Shown here: piece after piece, positions 9,079 to 14,974 of the stretch
Layout: every line of letters starts with the position of its first letter
Position numbering within the stretch: the first letter of the stretch is position 1
Source of the DNA: Chloroflexota bacterium
GTDB lineage: Bacteria; Chloroflexota; Anaerolineae; DTLA01
Assembly (NCBI GenBank): GCA_014874485.1
Contig: JADBJK010000075.1
Coordinates: forward strand, 1-64,000
Reading direction: 5' to 3'
Length of the DNA: 64,000 nucleotides
Made by a program: the position numbers and the translations under genes
Notes under the pieces: model-generated
Database searches by the model: none
Told to the model about the DNA's origin: nothing
Seen by the model: the letters and a program-made list of their open reading frames with translations, nothing else

Positions 9079-10258
9079 GCCTCCAGTTGCCTTTCTCCTG
9101 AATCACAAACCAGTTGACCGAGTGCATCCGCTTTTGCTGCTTGGGGTCGTTCTTCAACGTGTACAGGAACTCCACGTGGACGATGGCGCCGAAGTAGGTG
9201 TTGCCGTTGACGTCCACGTAGGGGATGTTCTCGGCCTGCGGCGTGTAGGCCAGGGTTTGCACCAGAATGCGGTCTATGCGGCCGGGCATGACGGGCAGGC
9301 CGTAGGCGTGGATGTTCTGCGTCTGCGCGGCGAGTTTGACCCGCTCCCGCGCCGTGGTGCTCATCAGCGGCAGGAAGTCGCCGTTGGGCATGCGGTTGTA
9401 GTAGGCGAGCACGACCTTTTCAGGGTATTCGGACACCGCTACGTCTTCCGGCTCTCGGAAGGCGAAATCTATCCAGGCCTCGCGGTAGGGGAGCAGGGCC
9501 TTCTCTTCCGCGTCCAGATAGGTGTCGCGGGCGGCATCGTATTCGTAGAGTTCCTTGCGCGCCAGTTGCGAGCGGTCGTACAAGCGGTGGGTGATGATGA
9601 CCCGGTTATTCTCGTCGGGCAGTTTGATAGCGTCGCCGCGGAAGTAGCCGATGCAGCGGTACACGGGCGGGTAGTCGCGCGGGTCAGTCCACTCCGGCGC
9701 TTTGCGCGATGGCTCGTAGCGGAACAGGGCGAACTCCTCAGGCGGGCCAGCACCGTGCACAAGGATTTCGGGCCGACCGGTGGTATCGCCCTTCACGTAG
9801 TCGCCCATGTCCACGGTCGTGTTCGCCCAGCCTATCTCGGAGGCATAGTCACGGTCGGGCAGACGGAGACGATAAGGGAACAAAATGGGCGGGTTGCCCC
9901 TGTCGTTGTCGTAGATGGCCACGGCGATAGGGCTACGCTGTCGGGTAAGGTCGTATTCGTAGATCACGACCCATTCATCAAACTTGTCGCCGTCGGTGTC
10001 CATCCGCTTGACGCCGTGGTTCCCGCCTGCCACCTGGGAGACCCCGGCAGGCATGATGTCGGGCCATACGACCCACCGGTCAAACACCATCCATCGGGCA
10101 ACAGGCTCGCGCCACTTCCAGGTGTCCAGTTGCGAGTAGCGCTGGTAGCCAAGGTAGATGAGCACGAGTAACAGAGTGAACCCCAACCACCCAGTAACGG
10201 CCATGCGTAACTGGATGTAGCACCCGGCCTCACTTACCTTGGTCTTCACGCTACTCAT
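9059..10258 (-). CDS. Unknown membrane-anchored protein with extracytoplasmic domain
   Basis: A 399-residue protein not assigned to a named family. Residues about 18-40 form one hydrophobic segment ('[18 protein letters not shown]'), so the rest is probably outside the membrane. A stretch near residue 85 reads '[18 protein letters not shown]', similar to the Asp-rich calcium loops of FG-GAP/VCBS-type repeats, and a related '[18 protein letters not shown]' follows about 65 residues later. The last ~130 residues ('[10 protein letters not shown]' to '[10 protein letters not shown]') have the look of an NTF2-like fold, which is an inference only. Its ATG overlaps the lon stop as ATGA, so translation is coupled to lon, and its end overlaps the AlbA-type gene. 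A link to protein quality control is possible but not shown. Confidence 0.72.
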
Positions 10259-12729
10259 GGGCTAGATCTCCTGCCTTCCACTACGTCTGCAGCGCCTGCT
10301 TTCGCCCTCCTGGCCTTCTTCTTGGGAGCGGTGGCCTCCGCCTCCGGCGCGGGAGGCTGGGCCAGCGCCGTAGCCAGCACCTGTTCCATGCGCTCCACAA
10401 ACACGAACGTCATATCGCGCCGCACCTTCGCGGGCAGTTCAACCAGGTCCTTCTGGTTCTTCTTGGGCAGGATGAACGTGTAGATGCGTGCGCGGTGGGC
10501 GGCGAGAATCTTCTCACGCAGGCCACCGACAGGCAGCACCCGCCCGCGCAGGGTGATCTCGCCGGTCATGGCCACGTCGCGCCGCACGGGCCGCTCGGAC
10601 AGGGCCGACACCAGCGCCGTGGCGATGGTAACGCCCGCCGACGGGCCATCCTTGGGCACCGCGCCCTCCGGCACGTGCACGTGGATGTCTATCTTGTCAA
10701 AGTCGCGGGCCTTGAGGCCCAGGTCGGCGGCGTGGGAGCGGGCGTAACTCAGGGCCGCCTGCGCCGATTCCTGCATGACCTCGCCCAACTGGCCGGTGAG
10801 GTTCAGCGACCCCTTGCCCTCCATGACGGTTACTTCCACCGTCATGATGTCGCCGCCGGTCTCGGTGTAGGCCACGCCGGTGGCCACGCCGATTTCGTCT
10901 TTCTCCTCGGCCTCGCCGTAGGAGAACTCGGGCGGGCCCAGGTACTTGTGCAGCATGCCGGCGGTGATGCGGGCCGGGACGCGCTTGCCCTCGGCCTTGG
11001 CCCGCGCCAGTTTGCGGCAGATGTTGGCAATGGCGCGCTCCAGGTTGCGGACGCCGGCCTCGTAGGTGTACTCGCGGATGATGTGGCGGATGGCCTCGGT
11101 GCTGAAGGTCGGCGGCGAATCCGACAGCCCGTGCTCCTCTATCTGCTCGGGAATCAGGAAGCGGCGGGCGATTTCCAGTTTTTCTTCCTCAATGTAACCC
11201 GGAAACTCTATCACTTCCATGCGATCGCGCAGCGCCGGCGCGATGGGGTCCAGGAAGTTCGCCGTGGTGATGAACAGCACCTTGGACAGGTCATAGGGCA
11301 CTTCCAGGTAGTGGTCCGAGAAGGCGTGATTCTGCTCGGGGTCCAGCACTTCCAGCAGGGCCGAGGTTGGATCGCCTCGGAAGTCCATGCCGACCTTGTC
11401 TATCTCGTCTAGCATGAAGAGCGGATTCACTGTTCCGGCGCGGCGCATGGTCTGGATGATGCGGCCGGGGAGCGCGCCCACGTAGGTGCGGCGGTGGCCT
11501 CGGATTTCGGCCTCGTCGCGGATGCCGCCCAGGCTCACGCGCACGAACTTGCGCCCCAGCGCCTCGGCGATGGACTGCCCCAGCGAGGTCTTGCCGGTGC
11601 CCGGCGGCCCCGCGAAGCACAGGATGGGGCTGCGCATCTTGCTGCCCGCCAACTTGCGGACGGCGATGTATTCCAGGATGCGCTCCTTGGCCTTCTTCAG
11701 CCCATAGTGGCGCGATTCCAAAATCCGCGCCGCGTTCTCCACGTCCAGGTTGTCCTCGGTCTGCGTGGACCAGGGCAACTCTATGAGCCAGTCCAGGTAG
11801 GTGCGGATGACCGTCGTCTCGGGCGACATGGGCGGCATCTCGGCCAGGCGCTGGAGTTCCTTCTCGGCGCGGGCCCGAACTTCCTCTGGCATGCCTGCCG
11901 CGGCGATCTTCTCGCGCAGTTCGGCGATCTCCATGGTCTGGGTGTCGCCTTCGCCCAGTTCCTGCTGGATCGCCTTGATCTGCTCGCGCAGGAAATACTC
12001 GCGCTGGGAGCGGTCCACCTCCTTCTGCACCTGGGAATGGATGCGGTTTTCCAGTTCCAGGACGTCCAGTTCCTTGGCGAGGATGATGCTGAGTTTCTGC
12101 AGGCGCGTGTTCGGGTCCGAGGTCTCCAGAAGTTCCTGGCGCTGCGCCACCGAGATGTTGAGAATGGACGCCACCAGGTCGGCCAGCCAGCCCGGCTCGC
12201 TCACGTTCATGGCCGCGACGTAGGCATCTTCGGGGAGCGAGCGGTTCAGTTGCACGATCTTCTCAAACAGCGCCAGTACGGCCCGCATGAGCGCCTCGGA
12301 CGAGATGGTCTTCTCGCTGGGCTCGTAGATGGGGGCGACGCGGACGCGCAGGTAGGGCTCGGTCTGGGTGAACTCCACGATGCGGATGCGGCGCTGGCCC
12401 TGGCACAGGATGCTGGTGGTGCCGTCGGGCATGCGGAGCGTGCGGCCGATGAGCACCTCGGTCCCCACCGTGTACAGGTCCTTGGGCAGGGGGTCAACGA
12501 TCTCCATGTCCTTCTGCGCCACGACGACCAGTACGCCATCCGTGGCCGTGGCGGCCTCCACGGCCTTCAGCGATCGGTCCCGCCCCACGAACAGCGGCGT
12601 AACCATGCGCGGGTACAGCACCGTATCCCGCACAGGCAGGACGGGATAGTCCCGCTCCTCGTCGGCGTCGGTATCCGCCGATTGGGGCGTCTGCAAATCG
12701 TCCAGGATGTCTCGGTAGTCTATAGACAA
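10255..12729 (-). CDS. lon: ATP-dependent Lon protease
   Basis: Full-length bacterial LonA of 824 residues, degrading damaged and regulatory proteins in the cytoplasm. Order: N-terminal substrate-binding domain starting '[23 protein letters not shown]', coiled region with '[18 protein letters not shown]', AAA+ domain with Walker A 'GPPGTGKTS' (Lys 380), and the protease domain with Ser 697 in 'KDGPSAG' and Lys 740 in '[10 protein letters not shown]', the normal catalytic dyad. The C-terminus has a basic tail. TTG 12729 is preferred: AAGGAGG lies four bases before it and the predicted promoter would start transcripts downstream of the other in-frame ATG at 12789. Two further genes are overlapped downstream. 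Confidence 0.97.
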
Positions 12730-12780
12730 GGGGCCTCCTTCGGATGTGAATACGCGCTTGCCCGCACAACGCGCACAGGT

Positions 12781-12809
12781 ATTGTACACAAAACCGCGCC
12801 AAAAGTAAA
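12781..12809 (-). promoter_or_regulatory. Predicted promoter of the lon operon
   Basis: Read on the minus strand: -35 TTTACT, 17-bp spacer, -10 TACAAT. Expected start near 12774, about 45 bases before the lon TTG. It lies back to back with the promoter of the response-regulator gene. Confidence 0.55.
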
Positions 12810-12845: not shown

Positions 12846-12882
12846 ACGGTAGGTTTCTGGGAGTCGTCAGGAGGTGGGTCAG

Positions 12883-13578
12883 GTGAGCACGTTGCGTGTG
12901 ATGATCGTGGACGACCATCCCCTTCTGCGGGGCGGCATCCGCCGAGTCCTGGAGGCGGAGAGCGACCTGGAGGTGGTGGGCGAAGCGTCGGACGGAAAAG
13001 AGGCCATCAGTCTGGCGCTGGAATTGGAGCCCGACATCGTGCTGATGGACATCAACCTGCCCACGATGAACGGGCTTCAGGCAACGCGCGAACTGAAGCA
13101 GTTGCGCCCCGACATCGGCGTCATCGTGTTCACGGCCTACCACGACGAGACCCAGGCGCTGCACGCCATCCAGGCGGGGGCGTCGGCGTACTTCCCAAAG
13201 GACGTTACCGCCGCGGAACTGGTGAATGCCATCCGCGAGGTGAGCCAGGGCAATTACGTCATTGACGACACGGTGTTGGCCAAGCCCGAAGTGGCCAAGT
13301 GGCTCCTCAAGCAGTTCCAGGAGGTGTCGCCCATCCAGGCGGAGGATGCTCTGGCGGACGAGTTATTCCTGCCGCTTTCGCCGCGGGAGATGGAGATTCT
13401 GCAGTTGATCGCGCGGGGGTTTAGCAACAAGGAAATCGCCAAGGAGTTGCGGATCAGCCGCCAGACGGTGAAGAATCACATGACCAGCATCCTGCGCAAG
13501 TTGGCCGTGAACGACCGCACCCAGGCCGCCGTGTACGCCCTGCGGCGCGGCTGGATTCGGCTGCAGGATACCCAGTAG
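12883..13578 (+). CDS. NarL/DegU-type response regulator
   Basis: A 231-residue two-component regulator. Receiver domain about 3-120 with the acidic pair in 'VMIVDDHP', phospho-acceptor Asp 56 in 'IVLMDINLP', Thr in 'VIVFTAY' and Lys in 'YFPKDV'. A linker of about 30 residues leads to a LuxR-type HTH about 165-228 ('LSPREMEILQLIARGFSNKEIAKEL', shown in part, and 'SRQTVKNHMTSILRKL'). GTG 12883 is preferred over GTG 12874 because AGGAGG lies eight bases before it. The kinase gene follows 26 bp downstream, so the two form a pair of the DegU-DegS kind. The genes it controls are not identifiable here. Confidence 0.93.
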   Translation: MSTLRVMIVDDHPLLRGGIRRVLEAESDLEVVGEASDGKEAISLALELEPDIVLMDINLPTMNGLQATRELKQLRPDIGVIVFTAYHDETQALHAIQAGASAYFPKDVTAAELVNAIREVSQGNYVIDDTVLAKPEVAKWLLKQFQEVSPIQAEDALADELFLPLSPREMEILQLIARGFSNKEIAKELRISRQTVKNHMTSILRKLAVNDRTQAAVYALRRGWIRLQDTQ

Positions 13579-13604: not shown

Positions 13605-14651
13605 ATGGACAGAAGCGCGGAACTGATGGACATCCAGGCCTTCTTCCGCGAGTTGGAAGCGGAACAGGAGCGCCTCCAAGTGGAGATCAACGAGATCGCC
13701 CTGCTGGTGCGCCAGAGCGCGGCAGAGGTGGAACGGCTGGCCCAGCGCAACGCCCAGGTCAACACCCGCGTGCGCCAGATGGAGGCGGCCATTGAGACGT
13801 ACCCCAGGGACGCGATTCGGCAACTGTACCTGGCCGCCCAGGAGTCCGAGGTGCGCCTCATCGCCATGCGCAGCCAGGTGGAGCAACTGCAGGCGAAGCA
13901 GGAGAAGATGCAGCAGTACGCGCAACTGCTCCAGCGGGTGCTCGGGCTGAAGGACTGGGCCATGCAGCAGGGGCTACAGCCCAGGACGGCGGTCTCGGAC
14001 ACGGTGGCGCTGGCCCGCGTCATAGAGGCACAGGAAGAGGAGCGCCAGCGCCTGGCCCGCCAGATGCACGACGGCCCCACCCAGTCGGTTACCAATTTCA
14101 TCCTGCAGACCGAAATCTGCGAGCGGCTGTTTGACACCAACCCCGAGCAGGCACGGATTGAGTTGGCCAACCTGCGGAACGCGGCCACCAGCACCTTCCA
14201 GAAGATTCGTGAGTTCATTGCCGAGTTGCGGCCGATGATGCTGGACGACCTGGGGCTGATTTCCACGGCGCGGCGCTACCTGCAGGACGCAGGCGAGAAG
14301 TCGGGGATGACCATCACGTTCACGCCGACGGGCACGGGCCGCCGCCTGGCATCCTACCTGGAGATCACGCTGTTCCGCGCCATCCAGCAGTTGGTGGCCA
14401 GGGCGCGGGACGACGCGCGGGCGTCTCGGGTGCAGGTGGCGCTGGACGTGGAAGGCGACGTCGCCACGCTGATCGTGGAGGACGACGGCGCGCCCGTGGA
14501 CTTTCACGGGGAGTCGCCTGGGCAGCAGAAACAGGCCGAGGCGCTGGAGGTGCTGCGCCGCCGCGTGGAGATGCTGGGCGGGCGCATGGACGTATCCAGC
14601 GCGGGCGGCGTCGGGACGGTCGTGCGGCTACAGATTCCAGTGGAAGCGTAG
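13605..14651 (+). CDS. DegS-like cytoplasmic sensor kinase, ATP site partly degenerate
   Basis: A 348-residue protein with no membrane segment. Residues about 10-120 form a long Glu/Gln/Arg-rich coiled coil, as in DegS. A HisKA_3 region follows with the phospho-accepting His 155 in 'EEERQRLARQMHDGPTQSV'. The C-terminal HATPase region keeps 'VEDDG' and a final 'GGVGTVVRLQIP', but the place where family members have the N-box Asn reads 'FRAIQQLVARARDDARA', and the usual second Gly of the G1 box is missing in 'DDGAPVDF'. Kinase activity may therefore be weak or absent. It is cotranscribed with the NarL/DegU-type regulator just upstream, its probable partner. Confidence 0.87.
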   Translation: MDRSAELMDIQAFFRELEAEQERLQVEINEIALLVRQSAAEVERLAQRNAQVNTRVRQMEAAIETYPRDAIRQLYLAAQESEVRLIAMRSQVEQLQAKQEKMQQYAQLLQRVLGLKDWAMQQGLQPRTAVSDTVALARVIEAQEEERQRLARQMHDGPTQSVTNFILQTEICERLFDTNPEQARIELANLRNAATSTFQKIREFIAELRPMMLDDLGLISTARRYLQDAGEKSGMTITFTPTGTGRRLASYLEITLFRAIQQLVARARDDARASRVQVALDVEGDVATLIVEDDGAPVDFHGESPGQQKQAEALEVLRRRVEMLGGRMDVSSAGGVGTVVRLQIPVEA

Positions 14652-14692: not shown

Positions 14693-14776
14693 GAACCTTG
14701 TGTTCGCTTGAACCTTGTGTTCGCTGGAACCTTGTGTTCGCTCGAACCTCGTGTTCGCTTGAACCTTGTGTTCGCC
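14693..14776. repeat. Minisatellite, five units of 17 bp
   Basis: Units begin at 14693, 14710, 14727, 14744 and 14761 with consensus GAACCTTGTGTTCGCT plus one variable base (the last unit ends in CC). It lies just downstream of the kinase gene in a 323-bp stretch that has no coding signal. Confidence 0.9.
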
Positions 14777-14823
14777 CTCATCGTAGGGAGCGCGGACGCG
14801 AACAAACGATGATCACGAATTGC

Positions 14824-14937
14824 AGGGGCGATTCATGAATCGCCCCTACTCTCATCGTAGGGAGCGCAGGCGCGAACAAATGAGGATCGCGAATCGTAGG
14901 GGCAATTCATGAATTGCCCCTACGATTCATGAATCAC
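14824..14937. repeat. ATTCATGAAT-centred palindromes
   Basis: A 24-bp perfect palindrome at 14824-14847 (half-site AGGGGCGATTCA) and a 30-bp perfect palindrome at 14895-14924 (half-site CGTAGGGGCAATTCA), followed by a partial third copy. They are separated by two similar 'ATCGTAGGGAGCGC-GGCGCGAACAAA' segments. Related palindromes occur at 59814, 60805, 57413 and, in frame, inside the gene at 22736. They could form long hairpins, but no terminator T-run is present. Confidence 0.85.
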
Positions 14938-14974
14938 CCCACGATTATGTCTCCACAACCCGCGCTTGCAGCCC

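Follow-up and report, generated by a model that had tools for sequence, protein, structure and literature searches.

The window analysed in this study was a 64,000-nucleotide stretch (positions 1-64,000) of contig JADBJK010000075.1, assembly GCA_014874485.1, from a Chloroflexota bacterium placed by GTDB in Anaerolineae; DTLA01. The gene at 13605-14651 encoded a protein, referred to here together with its homologues as HK2, which carried a dimerization and histidine phosphotransfer (DHp) domain of the HisKA_3 type with an intact phospho-acceptor histidine and a catalytic and ATP-binding (CA) domain whose nucleotide-binding motifs were largely lost. HK2 was located 26 bp downstream of a response regulator gene on the same strand and is assigned as a HisKA_3-derived pseudokinase, neither a kinase nor a proven phosphotransferase. 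The features of the gene pair were as follows, where "class" stands for Anaerolineae.

12874-13578, forward strand: NarL/DegU-type response regulator (receiver and LuxR-type helix-turn-helix), the partner gene (Response_reg 108 bits, GerE 80 bits)
13605-14651, forward strand: HK2, HisKA_3 pseudokinase of 348 amino acids (open reading frame, Pfam and alignment)
13611-13967, forward strand: N-terminal coiled coil, residues 3-121, weakly DegS-like (two long helices, 3-61 and 68-121, in the AlphaFold2 model)
14010-14240, forward strand: DHp domain, residues 136-212 (HisKA_3 match at 146-211)
14067-14069, forward strand: phospho-acceptor His155, intact (H in 128/128 class sequences and 147/148 overall)
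14070-14084, forward strand: DGPTQ, intact, with Asp156 and Gln160 at the HisKA_3 phosphatase motif positions (alignment)
14367-14417, forward strand: former N box, residues 255-271, TLFRAIQQLVARARDDA, with Gln262 (mostly Glu in relatives) and Arg266 (mostly Asn) (alignment)
14481-14501, forward strand: altered G1 box DDGAPVD, residues 293-299, with Asp293 and Gly295 kept and the second Gly changed to Pro297 (alignment)
14535-14582, forward strand: altered G2 box, residues 311-326, AEALEVLRRRVEMLGG, with the Gly at 313 replaced (Ala313) (alignment)

HK2 matched HisKA_3 (PF07730) with 54.9 bits against a cut-off of 24, including the phospho-acceptor His-Asp pair (H155, D156), and its match to HATPase_c was weak yet above threshold (31.1 bits, cut-off 26.4). 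The match of residues 17-105 to the DegS domain (PF05384) reached 23.6 bits and stayed under the cut-off of 27.6. The motif alignment contained the window HK2 and 127 distinct class homologues. In these 128 sequences, the column of His155 was always H, the column of R266 was N in 107, that of Q262 was E in 94, that of P297 in the G1 box was G in 123, and that of A313 in the G2 box was G in 111. Typical relatives read ELLNN, DDGSGF and LGLxT where the window HK2 read QLVAR, DDGAPV and EALEV, so the N-box Asn was missing and neither the G1 pattern (DxGxG) nor the G2 pattern was found. A scan of the whole of residues 213-348 revealed no Asn at all, which ruled out an N box displaced by a shifted alignment. 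The sequence-only reading of this gene had given its coordinates and frame correctly and had described an intact phospho-acceptor His, a missing N-box Asn and an altered G1 box (DDGAPVDF), and the alignment with HisKA_3 kinases, which it had named beforehand as the check, confirmed these lesions; the shifted N box that it had listed as a possible refutation was excluded by the scan. It had understated them, since the lost G2 box (EALEVL against LGLxxx in relatives) and the lost N-box Glu were overlooked. With all three boxes (N, G1 and G2) damaged, the ATP site appears to be broken and the use of ATP was probably lost.

Five sequence matches to solved structures were obtained for HK2, all of them DesK/YocF. 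The AlphaFold2 model of HK2, built from six sequences, had a predicted local distance difference test score (pLDDT) of 74.9 and a predicted template modelling score (pTM) of 0.44, and the pLDDT fell below 50 at residues 150-155 around the histidine. The CA part of the model alone matched the CA domain of VraS (4gt8) with a template modelling (TM) score of 0.85 by target length, and the best overall matches were DesK. The CA domain of HK2 is thereby predicted to retain a Bergerat-like fold.

The lesions were not a sequencing error, since QLVAR, DDGAP and EALE were also present in both genus-mates (98% and 94% identical). A named family member, 98% identical, came from an 'Anaerolineae bacterium' metagenome-assembled genome. 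The ratio of nonsynonymous to synonymous substitution rates (dN/dS) of HK2 was 0.069 and 0.058 between the window and the two genus-mates and 0.048 between the genus-mates. The corresponding values of the CA part were 0.090, 0.050 and 0.038, and those of the DHp domain did not exceed 0.023 across the genus pairs. The gene is thus under purifying selection, the damaged CA domain included. Because of the shared lesions and the low dN/dS, HK2 looks like a functional pseudokinase, neither an error nor a dying gene.

Homologues of HK2 (E <=1e-45) were found in 192 of 396 class genomes, the window included, and, in a sample of 201 genomes from across the phylum, in 46, of which 30 lay outside the class. 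The locus sample left out 66 of the 192 positive class genomes, mostly lower-ranked matches, and its 150 matched loci gave 127 distinct sequences once those that matched another exactly in their last 250 residues had been removed, so that close relatives remained; a larger set of 148 sequences combined 128 from the class with 20 from outside it, and the locus L237 did not enter the analysis. HK2 belongs to a Chloroflexota family whose usual gene neighbour is this NarL/DegU-type regulator. Of the class loci with at least 750 bases upstream, all 19 with an Asn-less HK2 and 95 of the 103 with an Asn-bearing one had the regulator directly 5' of HK2 in the same orientation. The residues of its phosphorylation site were almost invariant (Asp59 and Lys109 in 135/135 regulators, Thr87 in 134/135) and the receiver of the window regulator was intact, in agreement with the earlier statement that the partner regulator is conserved.

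The N-box Asn was kept in most sampled members of the family and was missing from 21 of the 128 class sequences, or 25 of 148 when those from outside the class were added. The 'sensor histidine kinase' annotation is therefore probably wrong for about 1 in 6 sampled family members. The phospho-acceptor His was kept in 147 of 148 sequences, the exception being L230 from outside the class, which had lost the His instead. All 21 Asn-less class members kept His155 together with the Asp at +1 and the Gln at +5, the latter being present in 89 of the 107 Asn-bearing ones. The extent of the damage varied, since the Asn-less clade f50 mostly retained G1 and, in G2, had either the Gly or an Asn at its position, and the window HK2 had lost all three boxes. 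In three Asn-less sequences (L133, L134 and L140), an Asn was present one residue ahead of the N-box column, which makes these losses less certain.

Phylogenetic trees of HK2 excluded the columns of the three ATP-site boxes. The tree of the class required five changes of the Asn, all of them forced by starred branches, and the 148-row tree required six, five of them so forced; long branches met in the latter (L217 with the L228 group, L227 with L230), and the placements there are unsure. If the ancestor was Asn-bearing, as the reading of these changes as losses assumes, the Asn appears to have been lost from HK2 in at least five lineages. In the approximately unbiased (AU) test on 42 rows, which were chosen by hand and grouped after the tree had been seen, a single group of all Asn-less rows was rejected with p-AU 5e-83, and a grouping of the window with clade f50 or with clade f19 was rejected with p-AU 0.005 and 0.0003, respectively. 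Both this recurrence and the second kinase of the relatives described below lay beyond the reach of the sequence-only reading.

In many relatives, a second HisKA_3 kinase, termed HK1, was encoded just 5' of the regulator, giving the order HK1 - regulator - HK2. Altogether 45 HK1-like proteins were found in 146 class loci, of which 127 had HK2 and 19 (L164-L182) were picked because the regulator was present and an HK2 match at 1e-45 was missing; 44 of the 45 ended directly 5' of the regulator in the same orientation. The class HK1 proteins were mostly damaged at the other site: of the 41 sequences readable at the His column, only 3 had H and the others had E, Q, R, K, S, M or D, and the N-box Asn was present in 36 of 45. 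Six HK1 from outside the class, judged by eye, all had both His and Asn. Over all HK1, in which 4 of 51 sequences ended before the His column, the His was present in 9 of 47 readable sequences (lost in 38), the Asn in 42 of 51 and the Gln at +5 in 44 of 48 readable ones. When HK1 was placed in a tree together with HK2 and further kinases, its 31 rows made up one side of a branch (97*); three outside kinases had been trimmed too short in that tree. The presence of His required three changes in the HK1 tree, only one of them forced, and the His of HK1 may therefore have been lost only a few times.

The locus L140 was the exception in layout, with HK1 and the regulator within one open frame of 509 codons (L140:1443-2969), which may be a fusion or contain an internal start of the regulator. 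It was also the one locus where the lesions were complementary, with the His of HK1 changed to Gln and its Asn kept, and the His of HK2 kept and its Asn changed to Asp. Among 42 HK1-HK2 pairs, the remaining combinations were a His-less, Asn-bearing HK1 with a complete HK2 (23 pairs), an HK1 without His and Asn with a complete HK2 (5), two complete proteins (4), a complete HK1 with an Asn-less HK2 (4), a complete HK1 with a His-less HK2 (1), and an HK1 with unreadable His (4). HK2 without a detected HK1 was found at 106 loci, 20 of them Asn-less, a count that is weaker for loci cut upstream. The rule that each pair keeps at least one His and at least one Asn had no violation in the readable pairs, which is not evidence, because only about 1.6 violations (0.8 for His and 0.8 for Asn) would be expected by chance in 42 pairs. 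For L228, L229, L231 and L233, the idea of an additional kinase next to HK2 was rejected as well, since the supposed third protein proved to be HK2 itself in a longer frame. In clade f50 (L133, L137, L141, L147, L148, L153, L156, L157), a gene resembling a flavin adenine dinucleotide (FAD)-dependent oxidoreductase, named by eye, replaced HK1 just 5' of the regulator.

At the window locus, the position of HK1 was occupied by the following gene, which was present in divergent orientation in both genus-mates too.

10255-12789, reverse strand: lon-like protease gene, divergent, where many relatives have HK1 (open reading frame; named from its sequence, without a library scan)

A search of the window genome (95.66% complete) with the HK1 profile gave seven matches, C117, C8, C77 (HK2 itself), C112, C24, C22 and C68 (of a different DHp type). 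All seven kept the His, by which an HK1 elsewhere in this genome was rejected, and a weak HisKA_3 match, C33, was a kinase with both His and Asn. A His-less, ATP-bearing partner was thus not found among the matches in the window genome, and the HK1-type partner of the relatives is unavailable there in that form. The best-scoring match, C117, adjoined its own regulator and had no obvious counterpart among the inspected matches of the genomes G001 and G002 (C94 and C155 were left out).

We lean, with little more than even confidence, towards HK2 being a pseudokinase that serves as a phosphotransfer/phosphatase subunit, charged in trans and derived from a cluster of two kinases and one regulator. 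HK2 would still form, probably as a dimer, the four-helix DHp bundle of HisKA_3 proteins with a CA domain of the Bergerat type, and would be unable to use ATP for phosphorylating itself. His155 would instead be charged in trans: either a different histidine kinase would phosphorylate it with its own CA domain within a heterodimer, or a phosphorylated receiver would hand its phosphate back. From His155, the phosphate would pass to Asp59 of the adjacent regulator. Asp156 and Gln160 would permit the reverse process, the dephosphorylation of the regulator, and the coiled coil would be the probable input of HK2. The ancestor may have been an HK1 - regulator - HK2 cluster in which catalysis and phosphate carrying drifted onto different proteins. 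We infer trans-phosphorylation, phosphotransfer, phosphatase activity and the ancestral cluster alike. In NarX, the phosphorylatable His was reported to be non-essential for phosphatase action (PMC5231405, citing Huynh 2010); the retention of the His in HK2 therefore points to phosphotransfer and argues against a protein acting as a phosphatase alone. A phosphatase activity of HK2 alongside phosphotransfer is plausible, because all 21 Asn-less class members retained both Asp156 and Gln160.

Several observations weigh against this assignment. HK1 was missing at the window locus, where the lon-like gene lies upstream of the regulator, and all seven HK1-profile matches in the genome were His-bearing, so no donor was identified. 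HK1 was found at only 5 of 25 Asn-less loci, L140, with its possible fusion, was the only complementary pair, and four of the Asn-less loci (L228, L229, L231 and L233) had a fully equipped HK1. The Asn of HK1 was also lost in seven pairs (five His-less and two with unreadable His). Nine loci had HK1 without a detected HK2 (L164, L165, L166, L169, L172, L174, L175, L168 and L182), and HK1 was His-less in all nine and also Asn-less in L168 and L182; neither neighbour of the regulator should be able to phosphorylate it there, which a simple split-kinase rule leaves unexplained. As for HK2 itself, the model was mediocre and weakest around His155, and since Asp293 of the G1 box was retained, some nucleotide binding may survive. 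Finally, the authors of the work on PhyT, a phosphotransferase compared below, could not rule out dephosphorylation in vivo (PMC5898713).

Unlikely, but deserving serious weight, is a role as phosphatase only, in which HK2 carries no phosphate and dephosphorylates the regulator via Asp156 and Gln160, and other kinases or small phosphodonors charge the regulator. The Gln of HisKA_3 proteins positions the hydrolytic water (PMC5231405), and Asp156 and Gln160 were both present in 21/21 Asn-less members as compared with the Gln in 89/107 Asn-bearing ones, raw counts of related sequences without correction for the tree. This role would not account for the conservation of His155 in the same 21 sequences, given the report on NarX, and PhyT, which was once read as a phosphatase, turned out to be a phosphotransferase in vitro without phosphatase activity on PhyR (PMC5898713). 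The sequence-only reading had offered a phosphatase, a scaffold or a substrate of another kinase, and the last of these fits best with the kept His155 and the NarX report, the first two, as sole functions, being less well supported. It is improbable that HK2 is merely a scaffold or titrator which binds the regulator or another kinase through the coil and the DHp domain and performs no chemistry: in its favour, both parts remained conserved in clade f50, with a mean pairwise identity of 66% in the coil and 82% in the DHp domain (69% and 78%, respectively, for ten relatives that bear the Asn), but the residues needed for chemistry (His, Asp and Gln) were retained in 21/21. An HK2 that remains an autokinase with an unorthodox nucleotide site is very improbable, since the N-box Glu and Asn, the second Gly of G1 and the Gly of G2 were lost together and no Asn was left in the domain, even though Asp293 and Gly295 of G1 were kept and the CA domain, with its Bergerat fold predicted to persist, was under purifying selection. 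A decaying gene without function or an assembly error, for which the lost motifs and nothing else speak, is rejected almost outright by lesions common to three genomes of the genus, by dN/dS values of 0.05-0.07 and by an open frame paired with a conserved regulator.

The proposed assignment of HK2 as a pseudokinase charged in trans would place it beside several known systems. In FasBCA, the DHp His of FasC (H246) is required and its kinase domain is dispensable, and FasC was proposed to be a pseudokinase that heterodimerizes with FasB (PMC12675982). The Chloroflexota clusters resemble FasBCA in combining two kinase-like proteins with one regulator, and FasC, like HK2, keeps the DHp His, which suggests by analogy that a second kinase can drive a subunit of this type through heterodimerization. 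They differ in that the FasBCA proteins are transmembrane with a ComE-like regulator, whereas HK2 is a HisKA_3 protein with a NarL/DegU-type regulator and a long modelled coiled coil, and in that the window cluster is without a partner kinase. PhyT (formerly PhyP), first read as a phosphatase and then found to be a phosphotransferase in vitro (PMC5898713), probably descends from a histidine kinase, too: its ATPase domain is degenerate, its phosphorylatable His is retained, and it acts on the regulator of its own locus. Unlike HK2, it is membrane-anchored, has a putative periplasmic sensor and the DHp motif HRxxN, and relays phosphate from SdrG to PhyR, whereas a second receiver was not identified for HK2. 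ChpT is a kinase-like dimer that showed no ATP in its Bergerat-like domain and whose His shuttles phosphate (PMC3433190). ChpT and Spo0B are dimeric histidine phosphotransferases (for Spo0B, PMC3433190 and PMC5898713), and HK2 has the defining combination of a His-bearing DHp domain and a degenerate ATP-binding domain; possible differences from these two are that it still matches the HisKA_3 and HATPase_c models and that most of the sampled family keeps the N box. HK2 shares its DHp class, regulator class and DegS-reminiscent N terminus with HisKA_3 kinases of the DegS/DesK/NarX type, from which it differs by the loss of the N, G1 and G2 boxes.

In the split kinase CheA3/CheA4, the ATP site and the phosphorylatable His reside on separate proteins, and phosphorylation occurs only when both are together (PMC3591291). 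The HK1 and HK2 of L140 are alike in this respect, by motif only. CheA3 and CheA4 belong to the CheA class and have domain deletions, whereas in HK1 and HK2 the DHp-CA layout persists and only individual motifs are lost, and at the window locus a half bearing the ATP site was not found. A survey that counted HisKA proteins without a HATPase domain put the share of histidine kinases that might be split and bifunctional at up to 1.7% (PMC3591291); a protein like HK2 would probably escape that survey, as its damaged HATPase_c still scores above the Pfam cut-off. We tentatively propose, as somewhat less likely than not, that the HK1 - regulator - HK2 module is ancestral in Chloroflexota and that its two kinases act as a heterodimer. 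In Anaerolineae, HK1 would have become the catalytic subunit, with an ATP site and no His, and HK2 the subunit that carries the His, so that a split kinase arose through point losses of motifs and not through deletion of domains. The ATP site of HK2 would then have been lost at least five times to yield stand-alone phosphotransfer pseudokinases such as that of the window. If true, the family would form a natural evolutionary series from bifunctional kinase through split kinase to phosphotransferase.

Pseudokinases and phosphotransferases of this kind are already known, but no account of a HisKA_3 version, of the Chloroflexota two-kinase cluster or of recurrent opposite losses was found in literature searches that covered papers outside subscription. 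ChpT, Spo0B, PhyT and FasC are single cases, each a finished product. The HK2 family offers intact, half-lost and fully lost stages within one phylum, reached several times independently and beside an HK1 with mostly the opposite lesion, so that the route from a kinase to a phosphotransferase or to one half of a split kinase becomes directly testable.

The loci without a detected HK2 had further features. At the position of Asp13 of the window regulator, which is the first acidic residue of its receiver, 14 of 19 such loci had Glu, as did 5 of 95 loci with an Asn-bearing HK2 and none of 21 with an Asn-less one. A ComF-like phosphoribosyltransferase gene, named by eye, was located 3' of the regulator in 12 of 13 readable loci without HK2 (L164, L165, L167, L168, L170, L171, L173, L176-L179 and L181, not L180, with L182 cut), and was followed in L164 and L165 by a gene resembling a ribosome hibernation factor, also named by eye. 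This order is reminiscent of the degSU-comF-hpf arrangement of Bacillus subtilis.

Directly 3' of HK2 in the window, tandem repeats were present at 14693-14946, with units of 17 bp (4.9 copies, GAACCTTGTGTTCGCTT), 74 bp (2 copies) and 20 bp (2.2 copies). The same genus contained a second pseudokinase-like protein of 541-556 amino acids with HisKA_3 and CA domains (G000:C22:72193-73818, equal to L234:1694-3319; L235:1679-3349; G002:C134), in which a Gln followed the His (LHQGP) and the N-box Asn was missing (QGIRHARLHG). It adjoined a short putative helix-turn-helix protein, and its frame was intact in two genomes, the match in G002 (C134) reaching the end of the contig. A long HisKA_3 kinase of G002 (L185, C36) had the His changed to Gln (ELQDETGQ) and an altered G1 box (QDYGAGF), and the His was present in L195 (G000:C8) and L186 (G001:C41).
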